From: Streptomyces sp. NBC_00557
GTDB lineage: Bacteria; Actinomycetota; Actinomycetes; Streptomycetales; Streptomycetaceae
DNA length: 64,000 bases
Assembly: GCF_036345995.1 (NCBI RefSeq)
Contig: NZ_CP107796.1
Span: forward strand, 3,968,001 to 4,032,000
Direction of reading: 5' to 3'
Positions 1 to 18,218 of the stretch are shown in pieces (position 1 is the first letter of the stretch; each line of letters opens with the position of its first letter). The translations under genes were made by a program, and so were the position numbers. Below the pieces are notes generated by a model. That model had not been told where the DNA came from. It did not search any database and saw only the letters and a list, made by a program, of their open reading frames with translations.

Positions 1-1
1 C

Positions 2-1006
2 CTGGTGGAGGCGCTGTCCGAGAGCCGTCAGCAGCTGCATCTGCACCCGGAGACCGTCGAGCGGGTCGTCCGTACGGGCCTGATGCTCGCCCACCGGAAG
101 GACCTCACCGAGGTCCCCGACCCCCGGCCCGACCGGGCCGCCCGCTGCTTCCGCCTGCCCGAGCTGCCCGGCGCCTGGGCGCGGGCCCGCAACGACGGCC
201 TGCGCCACCCGCTCACCGGCAAGGAGCGCCCGGTCGTCTTCGACGAGGCGGAGGCCCGCGACCGCACGGACGTGGTGCACCTGCACCTGGGGCACCGCCT
301 GGTCCAGATGTGCCTGCGGCTGCTGCGGGCGGAGCTGTGGTCGAGCGGCGCGGGGGCCCGCCTGTCCCGGGTGACGGCCCGGGTGGTGCCGGACGGTGCG
401 CTGCGGCAGCCGGCCGTGGTCGCGCACGGCCGCGTGGTCATCACCGGCAGCGGCGGGACGCGGCTGCACGAGGAGGTGATCACGGCGGGCGGGCTGATCG
501 AGGGCGGCAAGTTCGTCGCCGGGAAGATGGAGGACGTCGACAGGTGGCTGGCCGAGGCCACGGAGGAGCTGCCCGCCGAGGGCGTCCTCACCGAGCTGAC
601 CGACCTCTGGCCGCAGCTGGAGGACCGTCTCGCCCGCGCCTTGCAGAACCGGGCGAACCGGCGCTTCCGCTCACTTGAGACCATGCTCGCCGAACGGTGC
701 GAGCAGGAGGTCGAGGGCATGCGTGCGGTCCTGGAGGACCTGGGCCGCTCGATCCGGGCGCGGCTCGACGACACCGGGCACTGGCAGCAGGAGTCGCTCT
801 TCGACATCGACGACGAGCGCCGCCAGCTGCGCGCCGACCGCGAGGCGCTGCTGGAGCGGCTGCGGAGGCTGCCGGAGGTGACGGAGACGGAGACGGCCGC
901 GCTGCGCCGCCGCTGGGCCGATCCATCCCCCCGCTGGTTCCCGGTCGCCGTGACCTTCCTCGTCCCCCGTTCCCTCTCCGCCACCGCCCGCCAGGAGAAC
1001 CGCTGA
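2..1006 (+). CDS. drmD: DISARM SNF2-type helicase DrmD, C-terminal part (5' end outside window)
   Basis: Partial gene: the frame is open from the left edge and ends at TGA 1004-1006. About 334 residues remain. They lie beyond the helicase core, so no Walker motifs are visible. The piece has a mixed alpha/beta stretch and then an Arg/Glu-rich, probably coiled-coil tail (roughly residues 200-310 of the fragment) with a short LFDIDDERRQLR segment. I recognise this as the C-terminal region of SNF2-family DISARM helicases. The call rests mainly on position: the stop overlaps the drmMI start by one base (TGATG), and drmA, drmB and drmC follow further on. In class 1 DISARM, drmD directly precedes drmMI. 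The known role is restriction of incoming phage DNA together with the other Drm proteins. Confidence 0.8.
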   Translation: MVEALSESRQQLHLHPETVERVVRTGLMLAHRKDLTEVPDPRPDRAARCFRLPELPGAWARARNDGLRHPLTGKERPVVFDEAEARDRTDVVHLHLGHRLVQMCLRLLRAELWSSGAGARLSRVTARVVPDGALRQPAVVAHGRVVITGSGGTRLHEEVITAGGLIEGGKFVAGKMEDVDRWLAEATEELPAEGVLTELTDLWPQLEDRLARALQNRANRRFRSLETMLAERCEQEVEGMRAVLEDLGRSIRARLDDTGHWQQESLFDIDDERRQLRADREALLERLRRLPEVTETETAALRRRWADPSPRWFPVAVTFLVPRSLSATARQENR

Positions 1007-4000
1007 TGCCGACCGCCGCCCGCCCTGCCAGGAAGGTTCCGCCGAAGGGCTCGGTCCCCACCCCTGCCCAGCAGCACGAGGACTGGCTGCGGCTGCTGCG
1101 GCCCGACGGCCCGTTCGTCTCGCTGCCGGTGCTGGTCGGGGCGTTCCCGCAGGGCCTGGACACGATCCCGCCCGAGACATGGGAGCGGCTGCGGCAGGCC
1201 TGGGCGGAGGTCCAGGAGGACCCGGCGCTGCTGCGCTCCGCGTGGGAGCAGTTCGTCCTGGCGGAGCTGCTGGGCTGGCGGGCGCCCGGCCTGCGCGAGG
1301 GCGCGGCGATCCCCGAGTCGCTGCGGGCCGGCGCGAACACCCCCGACGCGGTGCTGGTCGGCCCCGGCCGGTCCGGCGGGCTGGCCCCGCGCGCCCTCTT
1401 CTTCCGCACGGACGACTGGGAGGGCCCCCTCAACCGCCCGCGCGGCGAACAGCCCGGCCTCGCCGACCGCGCGGCCGAGCTGTGCCGCGCCCGCGAGGTG
1501 CCGCTCGCCCTGCTGACGAACGGCCGCGAGTGGGCCCTGGTCCACGCCCGCCCGAAGGAAGCGACGACCATCGCCGTCTTCGACGCGGACCTGTGGACCG
1601 AGGAACCGATCCTCGCCCGCGCCTTCACCAGCCTGCTCACCGCGAGCCGTGTGATCCGCCCGCCGCAGGACGCCGAGGGCAAGCCGACCGACTCCACGGC
1701 GGGCCTGTTCGCCCGCACCGCCGACGCCCAGTCCGAGGTCACCGACACCCTGGGCCGCCAGGTGCGCGAGGCCGTGTCCCTGCTGGTGGCGGAGCTGTCC
1801 CGGCTGGACCGCGAGTCGGGCGGCGACCTGCTGCGGGGCGTACCGGCCAAGCAGGTCTACGAGGGCGCGCTCACCGTGATGATGCGCCTCGTCTTCCTCC
1901 TCTACGCCGAGGAACAGCGCCTGCTGCCCTCCGGAGACGAGCTGTACGACGCCTCGTACGCCATCGGCCCCCTCCACGACGAGCTGGCGAAGGCGCAGAG
2001 CCTGCACGGCGACGAGCTGGGCGACCGGGTCGAGGCGACCTGGCCGCGCCTGCTCGCGGTGTTCGCCGCGATTCACGGCGGCAGCACCCACGACCAGCTG
2101 TGGATCCCGCCCTACGGCGGCTCGCTGTTCGACCCGTCCCGCTTCCCCTGGCTGGTCCCGGCCAAGGTCACGGACCGGGTGGTCTACGAGATCCTCGACG
2201 CCCTCCTCACCCTGCGCGCCCGCAAGGGCTTCAAGGGCAGGGAACGCCTGTCCTACAAGGGCCTGGACGTCGAGCAGATCGGCCATGTCTACGAGGGTCT
2301 GCTGGAGTACGGCTGCCACTGGGCGGAGGAACCCTACGTCGGGGTCTCCTTCGGCCGGGACAGGAAGTACGAGGCGGTGCTGCCGCTGACCCGCCTGGAG
2401 GAGTGGTCGGCGGCCGGGACGCTCGCAGAGCAGGTGGCGGCGGCGACGGGCACGAAGCCGGCGACGGTTCAGGCGGCCCAGGCCAAGTCCGGCACGGTGA
2501 CGGTCGAACTGGAGACGGCGTGCGGCAGTGACCCGGCCCTGGTCGAGCGGGCGGCTGCCTTCTCCGGCCTGTACGGCACGGACCTGCGCGGCGAGCCGAA
2601 GGTGTGGCCGGCGGGCTCGATCATCATGGTCCGCTCCGGCAACCGGCGTGACACCGGCACGCACTACACGCCGAAGGCGCTGGCGGAGGAGGTCGTCGAG
2701 CACACGCTGGCACCGCTGTGCTACTCGCCGGGTCCGGCGGAGGGCGCGGACCCCGGTGTCTGGCGGCCGAAGAAGGCCGAGGAACTGCTGAAGCTGCGGG
2801 TGCTGGACCCGGCGATGGGTTCGGGAGCGTTCCTGGTGTCGGCGTGCCGGTACCTGGCGGACCGGGTGGTGGAGGCGTGGCTCCGGGAGCCGGAGCTTCC
2901 GCCGGAGATCACCCGGGACGTGGACCGGGACGACCACGAGCAACTGCACCAGATCGCCCGGCGGTTGGTGGCCGACCGGTGCCTGTACGGGGTCGACCGC
3001 GACCCCATGGCCGTGGAGCTGGCCAAGCTGTCGCTGTGGCTGGTCACGCTGGCGAAGGGGCGGCCGTTCTCGTTCCTGGACCACGCGCTGCGGTGCGGGG
3101 ACTCGCTGATCGGCGTCATCGACGTACGCCAGGTCAGGCAGTTCCATCTGGACTGGCAGGACCGGCAGTTGAGCCCCGAGGTCGCACGGGCACTGGAGAA
3201 CACGGAGTCGCTGCTGTCGCAGGCCGCAGATCTGCGGCGCCAGATCGAGTCGACGGCGGTCACGGACATCCGCGTTGTGCGGGACAAGGCCGACCTGCTG
3301 GCGAAGGCGGAGGCCCTGAGCGGCAAGCTGCGGCTGGCGGCCGATGCCGTGGTGGGCGCGGCTCTCGCTGCCGAGGGCATCTCCGACGAGGAGGCGTCCG
3401 AGATCACCGGCGAGGAGAACGTCGGCGGGGCGCGGGGGGCCGCGCGGTTCCGGGACGCCAAGGAGGACGCGAAGAGCCGGGCCTACCGGAACCGGCTGGA
3501 GGCTGTGGCGGGGCTGGTCGCTACGGCGCTGGGGGACGATGACGAGGTCGCGGCTGAGGCTGCGGCTGAACGGGCCCGGGAGATCGTGGAGGGGTGGCTG
3601 AAGGGGCCTCGGGCGGAGGCGGTTCGGCCGTTGCATTGGCCTTTGGAGTTTCCTGAAGTTATGGGGGTGGGGGGCTCTGCTGGATTCGATGTCGTGGTGG
3701 GAAATCCGCCGTTCATCGGTGGACAGAAGCTGACGGGAGCGTTGGGGCAGGACTATCGCGAGTACCTGGTCAATCGGATTGGCGGCGGCAAGCGGGGGAG
3801 CGCGGACCTGTGCTCGTACTTCCTGCTGCGCTACCTGTCGCTGGCGCCAGGTCGTCGCACGGGGATCATCGCCACGAACACTATTGCCCAGGGCGATACC
3901 CGTGAGGTGGGGCTGGATCAAGCGACGACAGATGGGTGGGCGTTGTACCGGGCGGTGAAGGCGCAGCCGTGGTCCGGCACTGCTGCCGTGGTCGTATCGC

Positions 4001-5184
4001 TCCTGTGGCTGGCCGGGAAACTCGGGCAAAGTGAGGCTCCCGTGTTGGACGGCAATGAGGTGCAGGGGATCACGCCAGGACTGGATCCGGCGTCTCGGGC
4101 GTCGGGTGTGCCACATCGTTTGGTGGCGAACGAGGCACAATCGTTCCAAGGGGCAATCGTGCTGGGTAAGGGGTTCATCCTCACTCCCGAAGAGGCTCAG
4201 GAACTTATCGGGAAGAACCCCAGGAACGCGGAGGTTATTCGTCCCTACCTCAACGGAGAAGACCTGTATCAGCGTCCGGGTTGTACAGCGAGTCGCTGGG
4301 TCATCAACTTTGAGGACTGGCCTCAGAAAAAGGCTGCGGAGTATGCAGAAGCGTTCGCAATCGTAGAGCGAGACGTGAAGCCGGTTCGAGCGCGGAACAA
4401 GAGAGCGGCGCGTCGCGAACGGTGGTGGCAGTTCGCCGAGCGTGCCTCCCAGTTGTACGAGGCGATCTCGGACATGGATCGCGCCATCGTGATCGTCCGG
4501 CATAGCAAGTCGCTGATTCCCAGCCTGTTGCCAACTAACCAAGTTTTCTCGGAAGCAGTGTCGGTGATTGCCACGTCGTCGACCGCTCAGCTTGCACTCC
4601 TGTCCAGCACACCACACGTGGCCTGGGCCTGGCATTGGGGCTCCAGCCTAAAAGGTGACCTCCGCTACAACCCGTCGGACATCTATGAGACATTCCCCCG
4701 CCCTGACGAAACATCGCGTCTTCACCGGGCAGGAGCAGTACTGGAAGCAGCCCAGCATGCTGTGATGTCAGCCCAAGACATGGGTCTCACCGACGCCTAC
4801 AAACTCGTCCACTCCAAGTCTGAGTCCGCCCCCGACATCGAAGCGATCCGCCGAGCACATATTGAGGTGGACCAGGCCGTCGCCGCGGCCTATGGCTGGA
4901 CCGATCTCGACCTCAAGCATGGGTTCCACACCACGCCGCAGGGCGTTCGCTTCACCATCGCGTCGGACGTCCAGACAGAGATCCTGGATCGGCTTCTTGA
5001 GCTGAACCACGCCCGCTACAAGGAAGAAGTGGAGAAGGGCCTGCACACGCCCGAGGCTAAGCGGCGACGCGCTGCCGCTCGTAAGGCCAAGGCAAAGGCT
5101 CGGGCCGCCGCGCGTAAGTCCAGTACCGCTTCGGGGGACTTCGACGACGGCGCGTTGTTCGCTCAGCCCGACGCGCTCTTCTGA
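1006..5184 (+). CDS. drmMI: DISARM class 1 N6-adenine DNA methyltransferase DrmMI
   Basis: A 1392-residue type IIG-like adenine methylase that marks host DNA as self in class 1 DISARM. The start is ATG 1006, overlapping the drmD stop by one base with AGGAG upstream. The SAM-binding motif is VLDPAMGSGAF near residues 599-609, and the catalytic motif IV is NPPF at residues 900-903. The N-terminal 550 residues have the long helical layout of PglX/DrmMI-like proteins. The C-terminal third should hold target recognition and ends in an Ala/Lys/Arg-rich tail. Codon use changes inside the gene: from about base 3630 to 4860 it is clearly less G/C-biased than the rest, which suggests the recognition part was exchanged. 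PglX of BREX/Pgl is the alternative, but drmA, drmB and drmC in cis make DrmMI far more likely. Confidence 0.9.
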   Translation: MPTAARPARKVPPKGSVPTPAQQHEDWLRLLRPDGPFVSLPVLVGAFPQGLDTIPPETWERLRQAWAEVQEDPALLRSAWEQFVLAELLGWRAPGLREGAAIPESLRAGANTPDAVLVGPGRSGGLAPRALFFRTDDWEGPLNRPRGEQPGLADRAAELCRAREVPLALLTNGREWALVHARPKEATTIAVFDADLWTEEPILARAFTSLLTASRVIRPPQDAEGKPTDSTAGLFARTADAQSEVTDTLGRQVREAVSLLVAELSRLDRESGGDLLRGVPAKQVYEGALTVMMRLVFLLYAEEQRLLPSGDELYDASYAIGPLHDELAKAQSLHGDELGDRVEATWPRLLAVFAAIHGGSTHDQLWIPPYGGSLFDPSRFPWLVPAKVTDRVVYEILDALLTLRARKGFKGRERLSYKGLDVEQIGHVYEGLLEYGCHWAEEPYVGVSFGRDRKYEAVLPLTRLEEWSAAGTLAEQVAAATGTKPATVQAAQAKSGTVTVELETACGSDPALVERAAAFSGLYGTDLRGEPKVWPAGSIIMVRSGNRRDTGTHYTPKALAEEVVEHTLAPLCYSPGPAEGADPGVWRPKKAEELLKLRVLDPAMGSGAFLVSACRYLADRVVEAWLREPELPPEITRDVDRDDHEQLHQIARRLVADRCLYGVDRDPMAVELAKLSLWLVTLAKGRPFSFLDHALRCGDSLIGVIDVRQVRQFHLDWQDRQLSPEVARALENTESLLSQAADLRRQIESTAVTDIRVVRDKADLLAKAEALSGKLRLAADAVVGAALAAEGISDEEASEITGEENVGGARGAARFRDAKEDAKSRAYRNRLEAVAGLVATALGDDDEVAAEAAAERAREIVEGWLKGPRAEAVRPLHWPLEFPEVMGVGGSAGFDVVVGNPPFIGGQKLTGALGQDYREYLVNRIGGGKRGSADLCSYFLLRYLSLAPGRRTGIIATNTIAQGDTREVGLDQATTDGWALYRAVKAQPWSGTAAVVVSLLWLAGKLGQSEAPVLDGNEVQGITPGLDPASRASGVPHRLVANEAQSFQGAIVLGKGFILTPEEAQELIGKNPRNAEVIRPYLNGEDLYQRPGCTASRWVINFEDWPQKKAAEYAEAFAIVERDVKPVRARNKRAARRERWWQFAERASQLYEAISDMDRAIVIVRHSKSLIPSLLPTNQVFSEAVSVIATSSTAQLALLSSTPHVAWAWHWGSSLKGDLRYNPSDIYETFPRPDETSRLHRAGAVLEAAQHAVMSAQDMGLTDAYKLVHSKSESAPDIEAIRRAHIEVDQAVAAAYGWTDLDLKHGFHTTPQGVRFTIASDVQTEILDRLLELNHARYKEEVEKGLHTPEAKRRRAAARKAKAKARAAARKSSTASGDFDDGALFAQPDALF

Positions 5185-5239: not shown

Positions 5240-5452
5240 TCAGCTCTCGGACGCGTACGCCACGAAGTCTGCCCAGGCCTCCGGCGCGAGGGCGAGGCGG
5301 GGGCTGGCGTCCCGGTACTTGGAGTCGCGGACGTGGATGGTGTCGGGGGTGGTGGCGACCTCCACGCAGGAGTTGCCGTCGCCGCTGCTGCTGTAGCTGC
5401 TCTTGAACCACGCCAGCGTGGAGCCGTCGCCGGGGGTGGGGTTGCCGCTCAT
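5240..5452 (-). CDS. DUF397 domain protein
   Basis: A 70-residue protein with the DUF397 signature: W-FKSSYSSSGDGNSCVEVA near residues 15-33, then VRDSK and W-FV-Y near the C-terminus. DUF397 proteins are small actinobacterial partners of XRE/DUF5753 regulators and have been proposed as antitoxin-like or regulatory partners. Its ATG overlaps the stop of the upstream XRE gene (ATGA), so the two are translationally coupled. It lies tail-to-tail with drmMI, 55 bp away, so it is not part of the DISARM transcript. The domain call is secure; the biochemical role is not known from sequence. Confidence 0.9.
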   Translation of the reverse strand: MSGNPTPGDGSTLAWFKSSYSSSGDGNSCVEVATTPDTIHVRDSKYRDASPRLALAPEAWADFVAYASES

Positions 5453-6324
5453 GTTTCTCCAAGCATCTGCTCGATGAAAGCCCGCGACTCTCGGGGCGTG
5501 AGCGCCTGGGCCCGGATCATGCTATAGCGCAGGTCAAGGATGCGGATCTGCTTCGGATCAGTCACCGGGCGACCGTTGAACGCCCCCTCGGAGCGCCCTA
5601 CCGCCGTACCGTCCGGGAACTTCAGCACCTCGATGATCCCGCCCGTACCGAAGTGTTCCTCGACGTCTGTCGGCATGACCTGGATTGACACATTCCGCAA
5701 CTCCCCCAGCTCAAGCAAGCGTTCGAGCTGTTGACGCCACACCATTCTGCCCCCGACCGGCCGCCGGAGCGTCGACTCTTCCTGGACGAAGCTGAGCGTC
5801 GGCGCGGGTGACCGCTCGAAGATCGAACGGCGAGCCATGCGCGCTGCCACCATGCGCTCCGTCTCCTCGTCCGAGTAGGCAGGAAGCCACGCGCCGAAGA
5901 GCGCCCGCATGTGCTCCTCGGTCTGCAACAGACCGGCGATGTTGCTGTTCTCGTACACCCCGATCTCGACCGCCCGCGCCTCCATCTGCGCCAGATCCCG
6001 CACCTTCTTCGGATACCGGACCTTCGCCACATCCTCCTTCATCGCGGCGAGCAGCCCACCCGCCCCCAACACCTCGTCCGCCCTGTCCAGATACTCGGGC
6101 CGGGGAATCCGCTTCCCGCTCTCGATCTTGTAGACGAGATCCTCGCCGTACCCCACGGCCTTCCCGAAGTCGCCGGCGCGCATCCCCACCGCCTCGCGCC
6201 GCAGCTTCAACTGCCGCCCCACGGTGGCGACCACGGCCACGCCCCACTCGTCGTCCGGGTCCACCTCCCACCCCGGCTCGTCAGCCTCGGTCCTCAGCTG
6301 CCGAACCTCGCCGTCCACCGACAT
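5449..6324 (-). CDS. XRE-family regulator with DUF5753 domain
   Basis: 291 residues. A helix-turn-helix occupies roughly residues 30-85 (LKLRREAVGM...YKIESGKRIP) and a DUF5753 domain fills about 105-285, including the typical IGVYENSNIAGLLQTEEHMRAL and VRPVGG-like segments. I chose ATG 6324 because GGAGG lies seven bases upstream; longer in-frame starts add sequence that does not resemble the family. These proteins are WhiJ-like regulators of development and secondary metabolism, usually next to a DUF397 gene and an anti-sigma-like ATPase, exactly as here. Its position inside a split DISARM locus makes it a candidate local regulator; that is inference. Confidence 0.92.
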   Translation of the reverse strand: MSVDGEVRQLRTEADEPGWEVDPDDEWGVAVVATVGRQLKLRREAVGMRAGDFGKAVGYGEDLVYKIESGKRIPRPEYLDRADEVLGAGGLLAAMKEDVAKVRYPKKVRDLAQMEARAVEIGVYENSNIAGLLQTEEHMRALFGAWLPAYSDEETERMVAARMARRSIFERSPAPTLSFVQEESTLRRPVGGRMVWRQQLERLLELGELRNVSIQVMPTDVEEHFGTGGIIEVLKFPDGTAVGRSEGAFNGRPVTDPKQIRILDLRYSMIRAQALTPRESRAFIEQMLGET

Positions 6325-8096: not shown

Positions 8097-8708
8097 ATGA
8101 CCATCGCACCGGACAACGCGCGACAGGGCGCTTCACACCGCTACCGGGCCATGCGGGACTACGTTCAGTCCGCGGACGACACCCTGCCCGGCAAGTTCGA
8201 GATCACCCGGGAAGGGATCGTCCACGACATGATGTCGCCTGTCGGCCCTCATGAGCTGACCACCGTGCACCTGCGGAGGCGCCTGGAAAGGGTGATGCCG
8301 GAAGAGATCGTGGCTCACACGGGCGAACCGGATGTCGAGGACGAGTCCCAGGGCCTCATGCGCCGACCGGACATCATGGTGATCACCATGGAGGACATGG
8401 ACGTCCCGGGCTCCTTCGACCCCCGTACTCTCATCGCCGCCGTCGAGGTCGTGTCCCGCTCCAACCCGGACAACGACTGGATCACCAAGATGCGCGACTA
8501 CCCCCTGATGGGCATCCCCGTCTACGCGATCTTCGATCCCCGCACTGGCACCGGCGCGGTCCTGACCGACATCCACCCCACCCCCGACGGCCCCCGCTAC
8601 GCCACCCGCAAGGACTTCGTCTACGGCGAGAACGTCACCATCGCCGACTGGACCATCTCCACCGAGGGCCTGCCTCGATACGAAGGAAGCAGCGACGAGC
8701 AGCGGTGA
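8097..8708 (+). CDS. Uma2-family (DUF820) PD-(D/E)xK nuclease-like protein
   Basis: 203 residues from ATG 8097, with AGGAG nine bases upstream. It has the restriction-endonuclease-fold signature of Uma2 proteins: RRPDIMVI with PD at 91-92, AVEVVS with E117, and K131 after a short loop, followed by the typical YPLMGIPVYAIFDPR segment. Uma2 proteins are widespread in actinobacteria and cyanobacteria; their substrate is mostly unknown. The stop overlaps a GTG (GTGA, 8705-8708), pointing to a coupled downstream gene that is now frameshifted. A longer in-frame start at 8049 has no better ribosome site. Confidence 0.9.
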   Translation: MTIAPDNARQGASHRYRAMRDYVQSADDTLPGKFEITREGIVHDMMSPVGPHELTTVHLRRRLERVMPEEIVAHTGEPDVEDESQGLMRRPDIMVITMEDMDVPGSFDPRTLIAAVEVVSRSNPDNDWITKMRDYPLMGIPVYAIFDPRTGTGAVLTDIHPTPDGPRYATRKDFVYGENVTIADWTISTEGLPRYEGSSDEQR

Positions 8709-8904: not shown

Positions 8905-9029
8905 GCTGGAAGCGGGAGTACGCCTTCGGCGCGGAGGAAAGCGCGCGTACGGCCCCCGTCGACTTCCTCGCCCAGGTGGCAGCCGCCTCGGTGACTCCTG
9001 CCCAGGCCTCTACTCCGGTCGCACCGTGA
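8901..9029 (+). CDS. Possible 42-residue ORF or gene remnant
   Basis: A short frame starting at TTG 8901, overlapping the stop of the preceding broken gene (TTGA), reads SWKREYAFGAEESARTAPVD and ends at 9029, inside the 3' end of the convergent gene. The coupled start argues for translation, but it is too short to classify and may be the truncated head of a larger gene. I see no family match. Confidence 0.3.
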   Translation: MSWKREYAFGAEESARTAPVDFLAQVAAASVTPAQASTPVAP

Positions 9030-10206
9030 ACTCCCGCACCCCCCGCATCCGCACGCCCGTCCCCCGCGGCTCCAGGTCTCCGGTCACCGTCACCTCCCAC
9101 CCGAACCGCCAGGCGTCCGCCGCCCGGTCGATGTCCTCGGCACGCAGCTCCACCCGGACACTGCGCTGGCGCCGGTAGTCATCGTGCAGGAAGGAACCGA
9201 AGATCGTGGCCTCGCGCGGGTGCACATCCCGGTGCAGCTTCTTCACCACCCCGTGCAGAACCGCGCCCTCCTCGCGGCCCAGCCGCTCGCGCAGGTCCTG
9301 CGCCACGGCCTCCAGCGCCACCGCGTGACGCCGGCTGATCGCGACCGGCGGCGAGGGCTGCTCCACCGGCCGCTCGGACGACCACGCGAAGGAGAGGGAG
9401 AAGTCACGGCGCTCCTCACCCGCGATCCTGACCAGGGCCTCGCACAGGTTCGCGGACAGGCCGGCATCCGACATGTGCTCGACGTGCGGCACGGAGTCCT
9501 GGGCCAGGGTCAGCTCGGCGGCCTTGTGCGCGCAGGTGACACCCGCGTACAGCATCCGGGAGACCCGGCGGGCGAACGGTTCGGGCCGTTGCGCCGCCAG
9601 GCTGCGCTGCCGAGTCAGCTCCGTCTCGTCGAAGAGAGAACCCTGGCCCCTCCGGTCGTGCCCGCCGTAGGCACCCTCCGGCAAGGGGACGTGAGCGGCG
9701 ACGACGTAACTGCCGACACGCGTCTGGTCCAGCCGTACCGACGCCACATGGTCCTTCACCGGCTGCGGTTTCCGCGCGGGCTGTACCGGCCGAGGCCCCA
9801 GCGCCGAGGACGCCGCCGCCGTGTGCAGGTCCTTCAGACCGGTCAGCGCCGACACCAGGTCGAGCAAGGGAGCCGTACCCGACGGGCCGGGCGGCACCAG
9901 GCGCAGGAACTGCCAGTCCACCGGCGGCAACCGCATCTCCCGCAGGATGTCACCCGCGGGCCGCGCCTCCACCACGGCCAGCGTCTCCAGGATGTCGGCG
10001 ACCCGGCCGGCGTAGTCACGGCGGCGCCGCACCGGCACCAGCAGTTCGTACGGCGGGCCCGGCTCGTCGCGCGGCTTCCACTCCCACAGCTCGGCACCCG
10101 ACAGGTCCCGCTCCGCGCTCCAGCCCTTGCCGCTCAGATAACGCCGGACGACCTCGGGCGCGAGGGTCGCGGCCTGCTCGAACTCCGCGTCGGTGATCAC
10201 CGTCAT
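9010..10206 (-). CDS. Unrecognised 398-residue protein, partner of DUF4365 gene
   Basis: I do not recognise this family. The start is ATG 10206, which overlaps the stop of the upstream DUF4365 gene (ATGA), so the two form a coupled operon. The N-terminal ~90 residues begin with an acidic/helical segment (FEQAATLAPEVVRRYLSGKGW) and a LLVPVRRRRDYAGR strand-helix unit. The middle has a Pro/Arg linker and then a mixed alpha/beta region with an F-WSSERP segment. The last ~75 residues (LHGVVKKLHRD..., VRVELRAEDIDRAADA, VTVTGDLEPRGTG) have the strand pattern of an OB-fold-like module; that is inference. No transmembrane helix or signal peptide is visible. Position between drmMI and drmA suggests a defence or DISARM-accessory role. 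Confidence 0.7.
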   Translation of the reverse strand: MTVITDAEFEQAATLAPEVVRRYLSGKGWSAERDLSGAELWEWKPRDEPGPPYELLVPVRRRRDYAGRVADILETLAVVEARPAGDILREMRLPPVDWQFLRLVPPGPSGTAPLLDLVSALTGLKDLHTAAASSALGPRPVQPARKPQPVKDHVASVRLDQTRVGSYVVAAHVPLPEGAYGGHDRRGQGSLFDETELTRQRSLAAQRPEPFARRVSRMLYAGVTCAHKAAELTLAQDSVPHVEHMSDAGLSANLCEALVRIAGEERRDFSLSFAWSSERPVEQPSPPVAISRRHAVALEAVAQDLRERLGREEGAVLHGVVKKLHRDVHPREATIFGSFLHDDYRRQRSVRVELRAEDIDRAADAWRFGWEVTVTGDLEPRGTGVRMRGVREFTVRPE

Positions 10207-10853
10207 GCCACCCCCACCAGCTCCCGGTAGTCCTCGGCGAACAGGTCGTGCAAGGAGTCGACGGTCAGCAGGTTGGCACGGGGGACGTAGACCGTGCGCG
10301 TACTCGAGCCCGATGTGTTGGCGGGTGCTACAGGCTTCTGGTCGTGCAGGCACAGCCAGTACGCGGCGTGGCTCAGGCGTAACCGCTCCTCGGTGGCGTG
10401 CGACCAGGCGTGGGGGTCCGCCGGAGCCAGCACGAGGAACAGGAAGCGGGGCATCTCGTAGTCGTTGCCGGCCAGCTGGTTGTAGTTCTTCACCTTGAGC
10501 GGGTAGCGAATGTGGTCGTCGTGGATGTCCGGGGACGACGTGCACTTGACCTGTGCCTCAATGGCCGGATATCTACGGGTCCCTCTGCGTCCCGCATACC
10601 CCAACTGCCAGTCGACGCCGACCCGGTCGCGCTCCTTGCGCGTCACGTCGAGGTTGGCCGCCGTGGCCAGCATGCGGATGAACTCCTCGCCGAAGGCGCC
10701 ACGATGGCCGTTGTCGCCGAAACCCTGCGATCCCTGCACCCAGGCGGGCGGGGACGCGGGACCGCTCGGCCCAGTGGATTTCGGGGCGAACAGCCGCTTC
10801 AGCAGGTCGTTCGGCTGCTGGTGCGGGATGCCGCCGGTCGTGCTGTCCGTCAT
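10203..10853 (-). CDS. DUF4365 domain protein, nuclease-like
   Basis: 216 residues from ATG 10853. The DUF4365 core is clear: GAFGEEFIRMLAT near residues 52-64, DRVGVDW with D81, then EAQVKCTSS with Q101/K103, the D...(E/Q)xK arrangement of PD-(D/E)xK nucleases. The C-terminal half has YPLKVKNYNQL and RFLFLVLAP strands typical of the domain. The gene points away from drmA across a 238 bp gap, and its stop overlaps the start of the 398-residue gene. DUF4365 proteins occur in many defence-gene neighbourhoods; cleavage activity here is inferred, not shown. A longer frame back to 10961 exists, but the extra N-terminus looks non-native. Confidence 0.85.
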   Translation of the reverse strand: MTDSTTGGIPHQQPNDLLKRLFAPKSTGPSGPASPPAWVQGSQGFGDNGHRGAFGEEFIRMLATAANLDVTRKERDRVGVDWQLGYAGRRGTRRYPAIEAQVKCTSSPDIHDDHIRYPLKVKNYNQLAGNDYEMPRFLFLVLAPADPHAWSHATEERLRLSHAAYWLCLHDQKPVAPANTSGSSTRTVYVPRANLLTVDSLHDLFAEDYRELVGVA

Positions 10854-10963
10854 CTGGCCCCGTTCACCCCCGAACACCGCACGCGCGGCGCGCGCCTGCT
10901 TCTCATGCGCCTGTGTACCCGTCGCGGGACGCACGGTAACGAAGGTCACACCGTCGGCCAACA

Positions 10964-10983
10964 GCCTTGATCGGAATCAGGCC
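10964..10983. promoter_or_regulatory. Palindrome in the DUF4365/drmA divergent promoter region
   Basis: GCC-TTGAT-CGGA-ATCA-GGC, with a perfect TGAT-N4-ATCA core at 10968-10979, lies between the divergent DUF4365 and drmA genes. It is the only clear dyad I noticed in the 238 bp gap and could be an operator for one of the local DNA-binding proteins. No confident -35/-10 pair was assigned. Confidence 0.35.
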
Positions 10984-11091
10984 GCGGCGGGCCCACCGGA
11001 CGCCCCGGGAACAACCGGTCACCGGCCCACGGACCGGGTCCGATACGGGAAGTCCGTGTCCGATGTCAGTGCGCGCGCCTACTCTTTGCCC

Positions 11092-14000
11092 GTGACCCAG
11101 CAGCCTCTCACCGGCCCCGGTCCCGAGCCGGCCGCCGGCCCCGCCGCACCGGTGCTGTCCGCGCCCACGCACCGGCAACTGCGCGACAAGCTCGCCGAGC
11201 TGGTCGTGCGCGACCTCCTGGGCCCCACCGGGGACGAGCCGGAGGAGTTGTCGGAGGGCAACCCCCTGGACCACTACATCATCGGGCGGCTGGCACCCGG
11301 CGGTGTCCGCGAGGAGGGCGACTCCGACCTGAAGACCGTCGGCAAGGTCGTCGAGCCCGAGACGCTCGAGGAGCCGGGCATGGCCCCCGAGCAGGAGCCC
11401 GAGGCCGGCGACCCCGACCCGTCCGCGCCGTCCATGCCGAGCCTGCACCCGTCGACGCTGGGACTGACCCTGCGGGTGGCGCGCGACATCCAGGAGCTGA
11501 GGGTCGACTGCACCTGGGCGCGCTACGAGCGCGGCGAGTCGGAGATCGAGGGAAACCACCGGCGGGTCTGGCGCCGGGTGCCCTGTTCGGGCACCGTCAC
11601 CGTGAAGCTGGCGGAGGGCAGACTCGCCGCCCAGCCGGTGCACCCGCGGGACTTCCCCCACATCGTGGTGCGTGGCCGGGCCCGGCTGCACGAGGGTTCC
11701 TGGCTGGTCTCGCTGTTCCTGGTCAACGGGCAGGAGAACAAGTCGGGCTGCACCCACTGGATGTTCCAGGCCTCGATGACCGTGGCGGGCGCTCCGGGCA
11801 CCGCTCCGTTCCTGCCGCGCCGGGCCGTCGAACTGCCCGGAGACGACCACGACGAGCGCCGCTCGCTCGCCATGACCTACCGCTTCCACCCCGAGTTCGC
11901 CGTCGGCCACGGCACCGGCGTGCACGCCGAGGCCGACCCGGCGGACGCCCGGCGCGCCGTACGCCTGACCACGACGGCCACCCCGTCGTACGAGATCCCG
12001 CACACCGACGTCCCCGATCCCCGCCGCGACCCGCGGGACGAGGACCTGCCCGAACTCGGCGACCTCGTGCTGGACATGCGCGAGCTGAGCCGACTGGAGG
12101 CCGCTCCCCTGCGGGCCGCGCTGCAGCCGCTCGTCGACGGGTACCGGTCTTGGATCGAGCGTCAGCGCCGGTCCGTCGACGATCCCGCCGTCGGCCTCGA
12201 CGCCTACCGTGCCGAGGCCCTGGAGAACCTCCGGCTCGCCGGTGTGGCGGCCGACCGCATCCAGGCCGGCATCGACGTGCTGCGGGACGACCCCGACGCT
12301 CTCGACGCCTTCCGGTTCGCCAACCGTGCCATGTGGCACCAGCGTGTGCACACCATCGCGGCCGCAGACCGGCGCCGTACGCCCGCGCTGTCGCTGGACG
12401 AGGCGGTCCGCGCCGCCGACCTGCCGGAGAACCGCAGCTGGCGTCCCTTCCAGCTGGCGTTCCTGCTGCTCAACCTCCCGTCGCTCGCGGACCCCGCCCA
12501 CCCCGAGCGCGCCGACGACCGCGGGGCGCTGGCCGACCTCCTGTGGTTCCCCACCGGTGGCGGCAAGACCGAGGCCTACCTCGGTCTGACCGCGTTCACC
12601 CTCGCCGTCCGCAGGCGCACGCCGCACCTCGGCGGCCTCGACGCCGAGCACGGCGTCGCCGTGATCATGCGGTACACGCTGCGTCTGCTCACCATCCAGC
12701 AGTTCCAGCGCGCCGCCGCACTGATCTGCGCCTGCGAGGTGATCCGCCGCGAGGAGCCTGCCCGCTGGGGCGACAACCCGTTCCGTATCGGTCTGTGGGT
12801 CGGTGGCCGCGTCACCCCCAACACCACCGACCAGGCCGCCGAGTGGGTCAAGGAACGCAAGAAGGACAAGGGGTTCAGCGGCTTCGGACGCACCGGGTCA
12901 CCGCACCAGCTCACGAGTTGCCCCTGGTGCGGAGCGAAAATGGAGGCGGGCCGCGACATCGCCGTGGAGCCCACCCTGCGCCGGACGTTCATCACCTGCC
13001 CCGACGCCTACGAATGCCCCTTCGGGGCCGCCGCCTTCGGGCTGCCGGCCGAGCAGCGGGGACTGCCGATCCTCGTCGTCGACGAGGAGATCTACCGTCT
13101 CCCGCCGAGCCTCGTCATCGCCACGGTCGACAAGTTCGCCCAACTGCCGTGGCGGGGCGAGACGCAGGCCCTGTTCGGCCAGGTCTCTCGCCGGTGCACG
13201 CGCCACGGATACGTCACACCGTCCGCCGTCGACAACGACTGGGAGTCGTCCAGCCATCCGCCGGGCAACGGCCACCCGGCCGCTTCCACCGTGGACGCGC
13301 AGCGCGTGCGCCCGCCGGACCTGATCGTCCAGGACGAGCTGCACCTCATCTCCGGTCCTCTCGGCTCCCTCACCGGCCTCTACGAGACAGCCGTGGATCT
13401 GCTGTCCACCTGGGAGCCCGAACCGGGCCGGAGCGTGCGGCCGAAGGTCATCGCCTCCACCGCCACCGTGCGCCGTGCGGACCGGCAGATCCACGATCTC
13501 TTCGCCCGCCGCACGGCCGTCTTCCCGCCGTCCGGACTCGACGCCGACGACACGTTCTTCGCCCGGCGCCGCGACACCGCCGAGACCCCCGGCCGCCGCT
13601 ACGTGGGCATCTGCGCCCAGGGTGTGCGGACCAAGTCCGTGGCGATCCGGGTGTTCGTCGCCCAGCTCGCCGCCGCCCAGCACCTGTACGAAACCTACGG
13701 CCCGAGCGACCTGACCGACCCGTACATGACGCTCGTCGGCTACTTCAACAGCCTGCGTGACCTCGGCGGCATGCGGCGGCTCGTCGAGGACGACGTGTCG
13801 GCGAGGCTGCTGCGGGCCGACCGCCGAGGGCTAGCCGCCCGCCGTATCGGAGAACCCGCCGAGCTGACCAGCCGCATGGCGTCCGAGGCCATCCCCGACA
13901 TCCTGGCGAAACTCGACCTCGCGTTCGGCCGCAGGCCCAAGGGATCCCCCCGGCCCATCGACGTCCTGCTCGCCACCAACATGATCGCCGTCGGAGTCGA

Positions 14001-14715
14001 CGTCGCCCGGCTCGGCGTCATGGTCGTCAACAACCAGCCCAAGTCGACCGCCGAGTACATCCAGGCCACGAGCCGCGTCGGCCGCCGCGCGCCCGGTCTC
14101 GTCTTCACCGTCCTCAACTGGGCCCGGCCGCGCGATCTCTCGCACTACGAGACCTTCGAGTCCTTCCACGCCAGCATCTACCAGCACGTCGAGGCCCTCT
14201 CCGTCACGCCGTTCGCCGATCGTGCCGTGGACCGGGGACTGACCGGTGTCCTCGCCTCCCTCGTCCGCAATCTCAAGCCGGACTACAACCCCAACCGGGG
14301 CGCACAGTGGGTGGACCGCCGCGGCGAGGTCGTCAGCCATGCCGTGCGCTCCCTGGAACTGCGCGCCCGGGACGTCCTGGCCGACCAGCACGTCGTCAAC
14401 GAGGTACGGACCCGGCTCGACGCCCGCCTCGACTACTGGGAGCAGAAGCGCCGCGCACCCGGCGCCGTCCTCGGATACCGCGCGGCCAAGCGGCAGGGCG
14501 ACGTCGCCCCGCTGCTGCTGGAGCCGGACAGCGGCCCGTGGCGGCTCATGACCTGCCCCACCTCACTGCGCGAGGTGGAACCGCCGATCCGGCTGATCTT
14601 CACCGGTGCGACAGGACCGGAACCCGACGAGGAACCGCCCTACGCACCGCGTGTGCAGGACGACGACCACGCCGGCCCGGCCGATGGCGACGACGACCCC
14701 TGGGAGAGGACATGA
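11092..14715 (+). CDS. drmA: DISARM helicase DrmA
   Basis: 1207 residues from GTG 11092; upstream in-frame codons do not encode family-like sequence. It is the core DISARM helicase. Walker A is FPTGGGKT (residues 486-493), Walker B is the DELH box (748-751), and motif VI is QATSRVGRR (991-999). A CPWC...CPDAYEC cluster (C610, C613, C636, C642) between the motor motifs probably binds zinc. The N-terminal ~400 residues are the DrmA-specific region, starting with an HRQLRDKLAELVVRDLLGP helix. With DrmB the protein forms a DNA-processing complex that acts on non-self DNA. The stop overlaps drmB (ATGA). Unlike the usual compact class 1 order, the gene sits 5.9 kb from drmMI. Confidence 0.93.
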   Translation: MTQQPLTGPGPEPAAGPAAPVLSAPTHRQLRDKLAELVVRDLLGPTGDEPEELSEGNPLDHYIIGRLAPGGVREEGDSDLKTVGKVVEPETLEEPGMAPEQEPEAGDPDPSAPSMPSLHPSTLGLTLRVARDIQELRVDCTWARYERGESEIEGNHRRVWRRVPCSGTVTVKLAEGRLAAQPVHPRDFPHIVVRGRARLHEGSWLVSLFLVNGQENKSGCTHWMFQASMTVAGAPGTAPFLPRRAVELPGDDHDERRSLAMTYRFHPEFAVGHGTGVHAEADPADARRAVRLTTTATPSYEIPHTDVPDPRRDPRDEDLPELGDLVLDMRELSRLEAAPLRAALQPLVDGYRSWIERQRRSVDDPAVGLDAYRAEALENLRLAGVAADRIQAGIDVLRDDPDALDAFRFANRAMWHQRVHTIAAADRRRTPALSLDEAVRAADLPENRSWRPFQLAFLLLNLPSLADPAHPERADDRGALADLLWFPTGGGKTEAYLGLTAFTLAVRRRTPHLGGLDAEHGVAVIMRYTLRLLTIQQFQRAAALICACEVIRREEPARWGDNPFRIGLWVGGRVTPNTTDQAAEWVKERKKDKGFSGFGRTGSPHQLTSCPWCGAKMEAGRDIAVEPTLRRTFITCPDAYECPFGAAAFGLPAEQRGLPILVVDEEIYRLPPSLVIATVDKFAQLPWRGETQALFGQVSRRCTRHGYVTPSAVDNDWESSSHPPGNGHPAASTVDAQRVRPPDLIVQDELHLISGPLGSLTGLYETAVDLLSTWEPEPGRSVRPKVIASTATVRRADRQIHDLFARRTAVFPPSGLDADDTFFARRRDTAETPGRRYVGICAQGVRTKSVAIRVFVAQLAAAQHLYETYGPSDLTDPYMTLVGYFNSLRDLGGMRRLVEDDVSARLLRADRRGLAARRIGEPAELTSRMASEAIPDILAKLDLAFGRRPKGSPRPIDVLLATNMIAVGVDVARLGVMVVNNQPKSTAEYIQATSRVGRRAPGLVFTVLNWARPRDLSHYETFESFHASIYQHVEALSVTPFADRAVDRGLTGVLASLVRNLKPDYNPNRGAQWVDRRGEVVSHAVRSLELRARDVLADQHVVNEVRTRLDARLDYWEQKRRAPGAVLGYRAAKRQGDVAPLLLEPDSGPWRLMTCPTSLREVEPPIRLIFTGATGPEPDEEPPYAPRVQDDDHAGPADGDDDPWERT

Positions 14716-16568
14716 GCAGCCCCACCACCCAAGCACTCCGTGTGGGCGAACTGCGGCCCAGCCAGCTCCTGCACACCTACGGCATCGGCGCCGTCACCGA
14801 CCTGCCCAACCTCTCGACCATGGTGATGGGCCTCGACGACTGGGACCCGGTCCGCGCGCGCGTCCTGACCGAGGACCGCCTCCTGGCCGCCGTACGCCGC
14901 CGCCTCGGCGGCTCGGTCACCGCCCTGCGCACCCCGCCCCACCTGCCGGAGAACCCCGCCGACCCCTACGGCGACTGGACCAGGACGGGCGTGCCGGTCG
15001 CCCTGTTCCCCCGGTGGCTGCGCTGCTCCCGCGAGCGGTGCAACCAGCTGGCACCCGCTTCCAGCGGCCTCTTCCAGCTGCGGCCCAACCTCTACCGGCC
15101 GGAGAAGACCAAGTACGTCCACACCAACTGCGGCGGTCCGGGCAAGGGCCAGCCGACGGCCCTGCCCGCCCGGTTCCTGGTCGCCTGCAAGGACGGCCAC
15201 ATGGACGACTTCCCCTGGGTCTACTTCGTCCACAAGGGCGACGACGCCTGCGACAACCCCACCCTGAGCCTGACCGAGTCCGGCACCACCGGCGAAGCCG
15301 CCAACGTCTTCGTGCGCTGCACGTGCGGGGCGGTCCGTTCCATGGCGGACGCCATCGGCCAGGCCGGGGAGAGCAACCTGCCGGCCTGCCGCGGCCACCA
15401 CCCCCACCTCGGCACCTTCGCCCCGGGCGGTTGCCGCGAGTTCGCACGGACGATGGTGCTGGGCGCCACCAACAGCTGGTTCGCCTCGCAACTGAAGGTG
15501 TTCAGCATTCCGCGTGCCGAAGAGCCCCTCACTCAGGCGGTCAAGGAACACTGGAAGCTGCTCTCCCCGCTCGCCGCCGTTCCCGCGGACGCCGCGAAGA
15601 TGCTGCTGCCCACGCAGGCATGCTGGCCCGAGCTGGAGCAGTACGGCGCGGACGCCGTGTGGACGGCCATCACCAAGGAAGCACAAGCGGTCACAGGTGA
15701 GCCGGAAGAAGAGGACGAGGAGTTCGACCTCATCACGCCCGAGTGGCGGGCCTTCACTCATCCACGCGACCATGCACTGCCGGACTTCACCACGGTCCGC
15801 GAGCGGCGGGTGCCCGACGGGACGGCGGAGTGGCTGGACAGCGTGGTCTTGGTCCACCGACTGCGCGAGGTGTCGGCACTCACCGGCTTCACCCGGATCG
15901 AGGCTCCCGAATGGCTGCCGGACGAAGAGGTGCGCACCCGCCCCGGAGCGCCCCTGAGCCGCAACGACCCAACCTGGGTTCCCTGCGCCGAGCTGCGGGG
16001 TGAGGGAGTGTTCCTGGCGCTCAAGGAGCGGCCACTCGCCGATTGGGAGCGACGCGACGCGGTGCTCGCCCGGGAAAGGGTCCTCCAGGACGCACACCGG
16101 GACTGGTGCCTGGCCCGCGGCGTGGAGCCGCGCTGGCCAGGAATCAGGTACGTGCTTCTGCACACCCTGGCGCACGTGCTGATCCGGCAGTTCGCGCTGG
16201 ACTGCGGCTACGGCGCCTCGGGCATAGCGGAGCGGATCTATGCCCGCTCCGGCCCCGACCCCATGTCGGGCATCCTGCTCTACACCGCGGCCCCCGACAG
16301 CGAGGGAACCCTGGGTGGACTCGTCTCGCTCGGACGCCGTGACCGCCTCGGGCCGGCCATCGCCCAGGCCCTCGAAGAGGCGAAGCTGTGCAGCTCCGAC
16401 CCGATGTGCTCCGAGCACGATCCGCGCATCCATGCCCGGTTGCACGGCGCGGCGTGCCATGCGTGCCTGTTCGCGGCGGAGACGTCCTGCGAGCGGGGCA
16501 ACCACTACCTGGACCGGGCACTGCTGGTGGAGACACTGGCGGACGACGCCTGTGCATTCAGGCCATGA
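14712..16568 (+). CDS. drmB: DISARM protein DrmB (DUF1998)
   Basis: 618 residues from ATG 14712, overlapping the drmA stop. The N-terminus has the characteristic VGELRPSQLLHTYGIGAV motif. Several Cys pairs follow (C105, C110, C140, C159, then RCTCG and LPACRGHH) and look like zinc sites. The C-terminal ~120 residues are the DUF1998 domain: LLHTLAHVLIRQFALDCGY, IAERIYAR, GILLYTAAPDSEGTLGGLV, and CSEHDPR with CHACLF and C-RGNHYLDR. DrmB is the obligate partner of DrmA in the DISARM core; it has no established catalytic activity of its own. Its stop overlaps the drmC start (ATGA), so drmA, drmB and drmC form a coupled operon. Confidence 0.94.
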   Translation: MSSPTTQALRVGELRPSQLLHTYGIGAVTDLPNLSTMVMGLDDWDPVRARVLTEDRLLAAVRRRLGGSVTALRTPPHLPENPADPYGDWTRTGVPVALFPRWLRCSRERCNQLAPASSGLFQLRPNLYRPEKTKYVHTNCGGPGKGQPTALPARFLVACKDGHMDDFPWVYFVHKGDDACDNPTLSLTESGTTGEAANVFVRCTCGAVRSMADAIGQAGESNLPACRGHHPHLGTFAPGGCREFARTMVLGATNSWFASQLKVFSIPRAEEPLTQAVKEHWKLLSPLAAVPADAAKMLLPTQACWPELEQYGADAVWTAITKEAQAVTGEPEEEDEEFDLITPEWRAFTHPRDHALPDFTTVRERRVPDGTAEWLDSVVLVHRLREVSALTGFTRIEAPEWLPDEEVRTRPGAPLSRNDPTWVPCAELRGEGVFLALKERPLADWERRDAVLARERVLQDAHRDWCLARGVEPRWPGIRYVLLHTLAHVLIRQFALDCGYGASGIAERIYARSGPDPMSGILLYTAAPDSEGTLGGLVSLGRRDRLGPAIAQALEEAKLCSSDPMCSEHDPRIHARLHGAACHACLFAAETSCERGNHYLDRALLVETLADDACAFRP

Positions 16569-17380
16569 GCCGCCCGCAGCCGATTCCCGGCCAGGAAGGG
16601 CCGAGCGGAGCGTCCCGGGCAGGCGTCCCGGCCGCTCGCAGTGGCGCGTCCTCCGCTCGCCTGCCCGCTCTTCTCGCCGCCCTCTGCGAACGCCTGCCCG
16701 AGGACAGGCGCGTCGCCCTGGAACGCGTCCTGGAAGCGGCCACCGGGCCGGACGACGCCCGGGTCAGCCGCTTCGCCGCCGGGGAATCGGCCGCCGGCCT
16801 GGCGCGCCAGCTCACGGACATCATCCATGCCTGGCGCACCGAGGCACCCGCCTTGACCGGAGCCGGACTGGCACTTGCCCTTGCCACGGCCCGGTCACTG
16901 CCACGCCCGAAGCCGACCCAGGTCGTGGTCAGCGGGCCCCTCGGCGCATCCGTACCGGCACGGCTGACGAGCGGTGTCGCCATGGAGGTGATCCGCTCCG
17001 CAACCACATCACTGCTGATCGCCAGCTTCGCCGCGCACGGCGCTCGGGATGTTGTGCGAGAGATAGGGCAAGCGGTCGACAGAGGCGTCCATGTGGACCT
17101 TTTGCTTGAGGAATCCACACAGGCAGCAGCCGCCTTCGCCGCGCTGCCCCGTGGAGTGCGCATCTGGCACCGCGTGGGGGCAGTGGGAGTACTGCACGCC
17201 AAACTGATCGCTGCCGACCGGCACACGGCGCTTTTGGGCAGCGCCAATCTCACCGACCGGGCGCTGTCAGACAACATCGAACTCGGTGTGGTGCTCCGTG
17301 ATCCCCAGCTCGTTAAGGGTCTGGTCGACCATTTTCACTGGTTGCTGACCCCGGAGCACAACATCATGCGTCAGGTGTGA
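16565..17380 (+). CDS. drmC: DISARM phospholipase D-like protein DrmC
   Basis: 271 residues from ATG 16565, overlapping drmB. It carries a single HKD motif, H211-x-K213-x4-D218-x6-G225-S226-x-N228, the PLD/Nuc active-site pattern, preceded by a SATTSLLIASFAAHG strand-helix unit. The first ~35 residues are Pro/Ser/Gly-rich and probably disordered. DrmC belongs to the three-gene DISARM core; published work found it less critical for protection than the others in a tested system. A single HKD motif implies dimerisation for nuclease-type catalysis. It is the last gene of the drmA operon; 130 bp separate it from the next gene. Confidence 0.92.
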   Translation: MSRPQPIPGQEGPSGASRAGVPAARSGASSARLPALLAALCERLPEDRRVALERVLEAATGPDDARVSRFAAGESAAGLARQLTDIIHAWRTEAPALTGAGLALALATARSLPRPKPTQVVVSGPLGASVPARLTSGVAMEVIRSATTSLLIASFAAHGARDVVREIGQAVDRGVHVDLLLEESTQAAAAFAALPRGVRIWHRVGAVGVLHAKLIAADRHTALLGSANLTDRALSDNIELGVVLRDPQLVKGLVDHFHWLLTPEHNIMRQV

Positions 17381-17510: not shown

Positions 17511-18218
17511 TTGAACGTCCCCGAACCCCACCACCGCCTCCTCGCCGACGTCGTCAGTGCGGGCGGCGCCTACGGGCTGGTGCTCGCCGGTGGATACGCG
17601 GTGCAGGCGCACGGTCTGGTGGTGCGCCCGCATGCGAATCTCGACTTCGCCACGGAGAGTTCCGAGGCGATGGACCGGATCGCCGCCGCCGTCGGCGCCG
17701 CCCTGGAGGCCCGCGGACGGCGGGTCCGGGCGGGGACGGTCACCGCGCTCACCGCGCAGCTGACGGTCGTCGATCCGCCGACGGGCGAGCCCTGTGCCGT
17801 GGCCCTGCACAAGGAAGCCTTCTGGCAGCCGCCGGAGCTGACCGAGTACGGCCCTGCCCTCTCCCTGGAGGACGCCGTCGGCACGAAGATCCGGGCGCTG
17901 TACGACCGCGGAGCGGCCGTCGACCTGATCGACGCGCGGGCCGCCGCTGCCCGCTTCTCCCTGCCGGATCTGGAGGCGCTGGGCCGCCGGCACGCCCATG
18001 ACCCGTTCGATCTGCCGACGCTGCAGTCCCGGCTGACGGGCACGGACTTCTACTCCGACGGGGACTTCCTGCGGTACGGCCTCGAGGAGGCCGAGGTCGC
18101 CGCCCTGCGCGCCTGGGCCCAGGAGTGGTCCGACGACATCGCCGAGCGACTGCTCGAAGACGGCGCGTCCCCCGACATCGAGCCGGACACGGAGTCCGGG
18201 CCCGACGCGGGGGACTGA
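17511..18218 (+). CDS. AbiEii/AbiGii-type nucleotidyltransferase-like protein
   Basis: 235 residues, starting at TTG 17511 (NVPEPHHRLLADVV is the usual family N-terminus). Residues 24-50 hold the nucleotidyltransferase start LVLAGGYAVQAHG and then RPHANLDFATES. In AbiEii-type enzymes the second element usually reads D-h-D; here N43-L44-D45 replaces the first Asp by Asn. The central LHKEAFWQPP, SLEDAVGTKIRALYDRGA and D-IDARAA segments fit the family. Related proteins are toxins of type IV toxin-antitoxin/abortive infection systems, but no AbiEi-like antitoxin is next to it. It lies just after DISARM and before aspS, at the edge of the island. Loss of activity is possible. Confidence 0.8.
   Translation: MNVPEPHHRLLADVVSAGGAYGLVLAGGYAVQAHGLVVRPHANLDFATESSEAMDRIAAAVGAALEARGRRVRAGTVTALTAQLTVVDPPTGEPCAVALHKEAFWQPPELTEYGPALSLEDAVGTKIRALYDRGAAVDLIDARAAAARFSLPDLEALGRRHAHDPFDLPTLQSRLTGTDFYSDGDFLRYGLEEAEVAALRAWAQEWSDDIAERLLEDGASPDIEPDTESGPDAGD

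Follow-up and report, generated by a model that had tools for sequence, protein, structure and literature searches.

Within a 64,000-bp stretch of Streptomyces sp. NBC_00557 (contig NZ_CP107796.1, positions 3,968,001 to 4,032,000; G000:C1:3968001-4032000; genome size 9.0 Mb), hereafter called the window, two coupled genes, A and B, were found inside a complete class 1 DISARM locus, in which drmD, drmMI, drmA, drmB and drmC are all present. The two proteins, a DUF4365-type nuclease family member and a partner predicted to contain an OB fold, correspond to the phage defence candidate PDC-M02 of PADLOC-DB 2.0.0. Our preferred reading, put forward tentatively and with slightly less than even confidence, is that A–B is a PDC-M02 nuclease cassette with B as its gate, which forms a fixed component of one subgroup of class 1 DISARM and most likely serves there as an auxiliary nuclease arm. 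With respect to PDC-M02, new here are the constant presence of the pair in one DISARM subgroup, its location beside Druantia type I genes in Streptomycetaceae, the predicted folds, and the comparison of the active site.

The gene pair and its family

10203..10853, minus strand: gene A, 216 amino acids, DUF4365/DREN-type PD-(D/E)XK nuclease family, PADLOC PDC-M02A
9010..10206, minus strand: gene B, 398 amino acids, PADLOC PDC-M02B, starting before the stop codon of A
10203..10206, minus strand: ATGA overlap of the A stop and the B start, four common bases, read as translational coupling

Coordinates, strands and lengths of both genes as well as the ATGA overlap, as given in a first-pass annotation made from the sequence, were all reproduced. 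Four-nucleotide overlaps were found in 19 of 20 A–B junctions examined, the window's own counted, with gene starts as chosen here and a start 3 nt further being equally possible in one of the 19 (L036). Among named loci, the nearest one retrieved was that of Streptomyces naganishii, whose B is 96% identical.

Comparison with PADLOC resulted in a match of gene A to model PDLC04284 (PDC-M02A; E = 8.2e-96, 317 bits) and of gene B to model PDLC04298 (PDC-M02B; E = 1.9e-117), the latter covering residues 1–397 and thus the whole length, and PDC-M02B models were matched by all 39 B homologues tested. PDC-M02 thus comprises the same two proteins, likewise adjacent. Since both proteins match PDC-M02, the pair is a catalogued candidate and not a new family. 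The proposal of a new defence system in the first-pass annotation therefore stands in part: a nuclease-family protein with a predicted-OB-fold partner is indeed part of a candidate family for defence and is met repeatedly in defence systems, but it is not new, as PDC-M02 is already in PADLOC-DB. Similarly, B had been said to have no recognised family, which is right for Pfam but not for PADLOC, where PDC-M02B fits. PDC-M02 is known as a computational candidate only, and PADLOC candidates of this kind are described as unpublished products of a guilt-by-embedding approach, mostly awaiting validation (PMC12988326). A literature search retrieved neither the term PDC-M02 nor a published test of the pair, and no work combining DISARM with DUF4365 was found.

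Conservation of the pair within DISARM

In all eight other loci with a B of more than 50% identity (51–96%, tblastn; L032–L039), the pair is located between drmMI and drmA, where it adjoins drmA and is divergent from it. The gap between drmMI and drmA measures about 4.7–9.8 kb in the pair-bearing loci; apart from the pair, it contains a DUF5753 helix-turn-helix (HTH) regulator in 8/8 of these other loci, a second HTH protein in 6/8, and a Uma2 gene in 2/8, in counts that small genes may have escaped with the gene caller used. Several relatives carry other genes at the Uma2 position.

Between drmMI and drmA, the pair forms an extra element, which here is flanked by the five class 1 genes and which related loci lack. 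In L082 and L083 (DrmB 61% identical), a frame matching drmMI ends less than 200 bp from drmA, and matches to drmD, drmB and drmC are present. Profile searches at E up to 1 revealed neither A nor B in these two loci, nor in L084 and L085 (DrmB 44–46%), which are known by their DrmB match only and are the two fetched of twelve loci at 43–46%. Because L082–L085 are without A or B, the pair is not an obligatory component of class 1 DISARM.

Distance matrices of A, B, DrmA and DrmB were concordant (Mantel rho of 0.86–0.95 for A or B versus DrmA or DrmB; permutation p ≤ 0.005) in a test of eight loci including the window, from which L034 was left out since its drmA reads in pieces. In this locus (Streptomyces sp. 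Tue 6430), matches to drmA, drmB and drmMI are fragmented by decay or assembly errors, while A and B are intact.

Of 200 family genomes searched, 21 contained B and 67 a DrmB-type match. The genomes in which the pair adjoins DrmB comprise four with a DrmB at least 73% identical, our own genome counted, and G088 (L041), with a DrmB of 36% and A–B again divergent from drmA at a distance of about 1.2 kb. As a feature of genome architecture, the link to DISARM is well supported. Constant position and co-inheritance are also consistent with the earlier suggestion that the pair may modify DISARM.

Association with Druantia type I

The first-pass annotation had named as evidence against itself that homologues of the pair never occur near defence genes; they do, in class 1 DISARM and, in the case of remote homologues, in Druantia type I. 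A reverse search resulted in DruA1 matches in 6 of the 200 genomes, four of them full-length (G188, G144, G118, and G114), and in all four a remote-branch A–B lies within 2 kb of the match. No A–B adjoins the two weak partial matches, whose surroundings (L103, L104) harbored neither A nor B. Direct scans revealed that druA is faced in L044 by the order druD-druE-A-B and in L051 by A–B with a shorter druE frame adjoining it, so that druE directly precedes the pair in both. Unlike DISARM, Druantia I is not found in our own genome (G000), in which PDLC00001 (DruA1) gave 0 matches.

PADLOC models were run on 127 proteins neighbouring 13 non-DISARM loci and, as a control, on 125 proteins from 13 regions 100–150 kb away. 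Twelve of the 13 loci were matched by genome; the genome of L056 is without control, and control region L099 comes from the genome of L045, which had been dropped. A further control region, L100, was left out of the scan. Dropped beforehand were L045 and L047 as near-duplicates of L044 and L046, L055 at a contig end, the short loci L024, L025, L030 and L031, and L041, which is of the DISARM type. Genes overlapping A–B even by a few bases were left out, hence also the helicase of L051, which was scanned separately afterwards. In the test set, for which 25 of 41 families are listed, druA1 was found in three members, druD1 in three, and druE in two; the control regions, for which 25 of 66 families are listed, revealed no druA1, druD1 or druE, but kinases and other generic matches only. 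A general defence-island enrichment of the 13 loci was rejected, the listed matches being single or generic apart from Druantia I, and those of the controls generic too.

Gene A, a predicted nuclease

Gene A matched Pfam PF14280 (DUF4365) with 55.8 bits at a cut-off of 24.3, in agreement with its first-pass assignment, and no other Pfam family. The D...(E/Q)xK nuclease pattern noticed at first reading is also conserved: D76, D81, Q101 and K103 are invariant in 39/39 alignment rows and represent the active-site candidates. Its best fold matches are the DUF4365 (DREN) nuclease domains of SPARDA, covering residues 41–216, and the predicted structure has the PD-(D/E)XK core fold in addition to the acidic residues and the (E/Q)xK motif. 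In sequence searches against solved structures, profile A2 found nothing at E up to 1, and profile A4 found a weak match to a SPARDA DUF4365 protein (E = 0.043) plus one chance-level match. By family, predicted fold and conserved active site, gene A is a member of the DREN-type PD-(D/E)XK nucleases, and its product is predicted to be an active nuclease.

Gene B, the partner

The predicted architecture of B consists of an N-terminal domain (about residues 1–105), a middle part (about 110–310), and a C-terminal OB fold (309–398). The latter, suspected before from the sequence, appears in the predicted structure as a barrel resembling single-stranded DNA-binding proteins, and from this model B may sense single strands. 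No Pfam family was found for B, and at E up to 1 no family was hit by two or more of the 39 homologues. Searches against solved structures gave nothing convincing for the B profile (best E = 0.29), and the best E for the N-terminal domain was 0.34; HicA, considered for the N-terminus, found no sequence support in Pfam (39 homologues) or in the solved-structure searches.

Three further relationships of B were considered. A short prokaryotic Argonaute (pAgo) or APAZ protein found no support in family searches or in fold searches, which barely probed the middle part (about 110–310); no Piwi family was detected at E up to 1 or among the fold matches listed, where a missing match is not proof. A kinship to DruD reached an hhalign probability of 0.1 against a single DruD sequence. 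For DUF6575, described as an anti-phage domain (PMC9519451), one viral Foldseek match had an E value of 1.3e-6 but a TM score of 0.30 and an rmsd of 14.4, and no Pfam match was found, leaving a lead only.

Compared to SPARDA, which combines a short pAgo with a DREN/DUF4365-APAZ protein, A shares the fold of the effector nuclease and its QxK motif but has no APAZ fused to it, the match to residues 41–216 taking in the end of its 216 amino acids. B differs in having neither a pAgo family nor a listed pAgo fold match and in its OB-fold end, and no guide is implied.

Other copies of the pair

In the first 29 B loci collected, A was located immediately upstream in 28, split in two in L040, and was absent from L025. 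L044/L045 and L046/L047 are near-duplicates. The order is retained in most homologues on plasmids and in phages, with the exception of L065 and a Pigmentibacter plasmid (L074), which carry B without A, and L078, with a shortened A. In L078 and L079, from Tolypothrix and Nostoc plasmids, B is short, consisting of the N-terminal and OB parts without the middle one, and an integrase gene is adjacent.

In the temperate Leptospira phage LE1 (L101), genes 0038 and 0037 encode DUF4365 and B and follow a type IIG restriction-methyltransferase gene (LE1-0039, E = 0), which is another DNA-targeting context. In Mycobacterium phage prophi102-2 (L071), A–B occupy the prophage end as genes 1 and 2, before WXG and polymorphic-toxin genes. 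Single-sequence scans of viral contigs with the M. abscessus prophage B resulted in one near-identical fragment, and with P0002 in no match.

Our own genome harbors a second A–B pair (G000:C1:6811797-6813400; L001, L067, L086), in which the active-site residues are retained. On one side of it is an RNase_T exonuclease gene and on the other a predicted threonyl-tRNA synthetase gene, a name taken from a reading of its sequence start; the setting looks like housekeeping. With a profile, B was matched in eight other genomes of the genus and in none of three same-genus genomes listed; G044 showed no A. Of the 200 family genomes, 124 have A-type matches, and the branch is apparently common or near-core in Streptomyces.

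Proposed role and alternatives

Our proposal starts from what was observed, namely the families of both proteins, the predicted fold and conserved active site of A, the operon coupling, the fixed position, the co-inheritance with drmA and drmB, and the recurrence beside Druantia I. The DrmAB helicase, described as loading on single-stranded or 5'-overhang DNA (PMC9142583), would mark or unwind phage DNA; B, whose OB fold may bind single-stranded nucleic acid, would capture the exposed strand or the helicase and recruit or assemble A once the phage DNA is opened, whereupon A would cut it. A–B would in this case be physically coupled to DrmAB and presumably exert an anti-phage effect. As an analogy only, the scheme may be compared with Hachiman (HamA nuclease and HamB helicase), in which a sensing helicase is likewise envisaged to release a nuclease.

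DISARM and Druantia are both described as built around YprA-family helicases, those of Druantia I with an inactivated Vsr nuclease domain and DISARM with the PLD nuclease DrmC (PMC12458937, in whose main text the terms DUF4365 and PDC do not occur). According to PMC9142583, DrmC is dispensable and often missing, and nuclease recruitment in DISARM is called a mystery. Because Vsr is inactivated in Druantia I, and DrmC is dispensable and recruitment so described in DISARM, the pair may be a nuclease cassette for YprA-helicase systems that have no obligatory nuclease themselves, B's OB fold being the likely link to the unwound strand. A further-reaching version, which we consider rather unlikely, is that A–B is an exchangeable module for YprA-helicase immunity, serving Druantia I with its reportedly dead Vsr as well as class 1 DISARM with its dispensable DrmC, both of which would receive their active cutter from it. 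The OB fold of B would then accept the single strand that the helicase produces and activate the DREN nuclease without an Argonaute.

Several findings weigh against the role as an auxiliary arm. The pair adjoins DrmB in only 5 of the 67 DrmB-matching genomes (coordinate comparison), and the tie therefore concerns one DISARM subgroup rather than DISARM in general. Co-inheritance is expected of any gene inside a gene cluster, and drmC is present too, so that the DISARM of this locus already has a nuclease; for the same reason, the pair as a replacement of drmC was ruled out. Druantia I is the only multi-gene system evident among the families listed, in 3 of the 13 non-DISARM loci, most of the others lying among ordinary chromosomal or mobile-element genes as judged from gene starts, and two of the four Druantia loci (L044/L045, those of G188 and G144) are near-duplicates, which reduces the number of independent events. 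There are phage and plasmid copies with no DISARM or Druantia annotation nearby, on the basis of annotations plus a scan of LE1-0039. The apparently near-core paralogue of Streptomyces suggests that some family members have roles outside defence; its housekeeping-like setting argues against a purely defensive family, and a role in DISARM is not readable from the family alone.

A possible but doubtful alternative is a self-contained defence system, in which B senses and A cuts, perhaps killing the cell, embedded in DISARM and sharing its regulation without touching DrmAB. The occurrence of A–B pairs in temperate phages (Leptospira LE1 0038/0037; M. abscessus prophage genes 1–2) and on plasmids from several phyla argues for it, as does the collateral cleavage reported for the SPARDA DREN domain once activated (PMC12205087). 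However, the fixed place beside the DISARM helicase gene and the Druantia I genes suggests more than chance embedding, and the related DISARM loci L082 and L083 have no insert at that place.

We regard as improbable a DNA repair or recombination module, in which A would be a junction nuclease of the Hjc kind and B a partner resembling SSB or PriB, both retained secondarily at defence loci, since SPARDA effector nucleases rank above Hjc for A and the B branch reachable by single-sequence search is patchy (21/200 family genomes). Even less probable is that A and B, as DNase toxin and antitoxin, form an addiction or toxin-antitoxin module by which plasmids or the DISARM locus are stabilised: typical antitoxins differ from a long, multi-domain second gene such as B, HicA is without sequence support, and there are apparently near-core chromosomal copies.

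The auxiliary-arm reading bears on a standing question, the destruction of phage DNA by DISARM (PMC9142583). A two-gene nuclease fixed beside the DISARM helicase gene and Druantia I genes offers a concrete candidate for the missing cutter, and one that can be deleted. If true, the module reading would answer where these helicase systems get their nuclease and would add a second, Argonaute-free way to control a DREN nuclease.

Genes and regulatory sequences around the pair

1..1006, plus strand: drmD, 3' part; the gene (1059 amino acids, L003:13827-17006) starts 2.2 kb beyond the window
1006..5184, plus strand: drmMI, Eco57I/MmeI-type methyltransferase, 1392 amino acids
5240..5452, minus strand: DUF397 protein, 70 amino acids, between drmMI and drmA
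5449..6324, minus strand: HTH and DUF5753 regulator, 291 amino acids
7178..8047, plus strand: HTH_36-like protein, 289 amino acids, under the Pfam cut-off
8151..8708, plus strand: Uma2-family putative endonuclease, 185 amino acids, PADLOC PDC-S03
10854..11091, no strand: divergent intergenic region between A and drmA, 238 bp, with conserved blocks
11092..14715, plus strand: drmA, helicase, 1207 amino acids, GTG start at 11092
14742..16568, plus strand: drmB, 608 amino acids, MrfA Zn-binding (MZB) domain
16565..17380, plus strand: drmC; the open reading frame 16388–17380 matches DrmC from residue 89, and the ATG at 16565 overlaps the drmB stop

The divergence of the pair from drmA, recognised already in the first-pass annotation, thus spans 238 bp, and this spacer has invariant positions in nine aligned loci. 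A GTAACG core is found in 8/9 of them, surrounded by an imperfect dyad in several, and invariant TGTC and CTA motifs lie just 5' of the drmA GTG; these blocks are candidates for operator and promoter. The DUF5753-HTH regulator, encoded with the DUF397 gene in the stretch 5240–6324, may control A–B and drmA together. On the 3' side of drmC, an AbiEii-like nucleotidyltransferase gene was identified (17511–18218, plus strand; PF08843, E = 2.3e-6).
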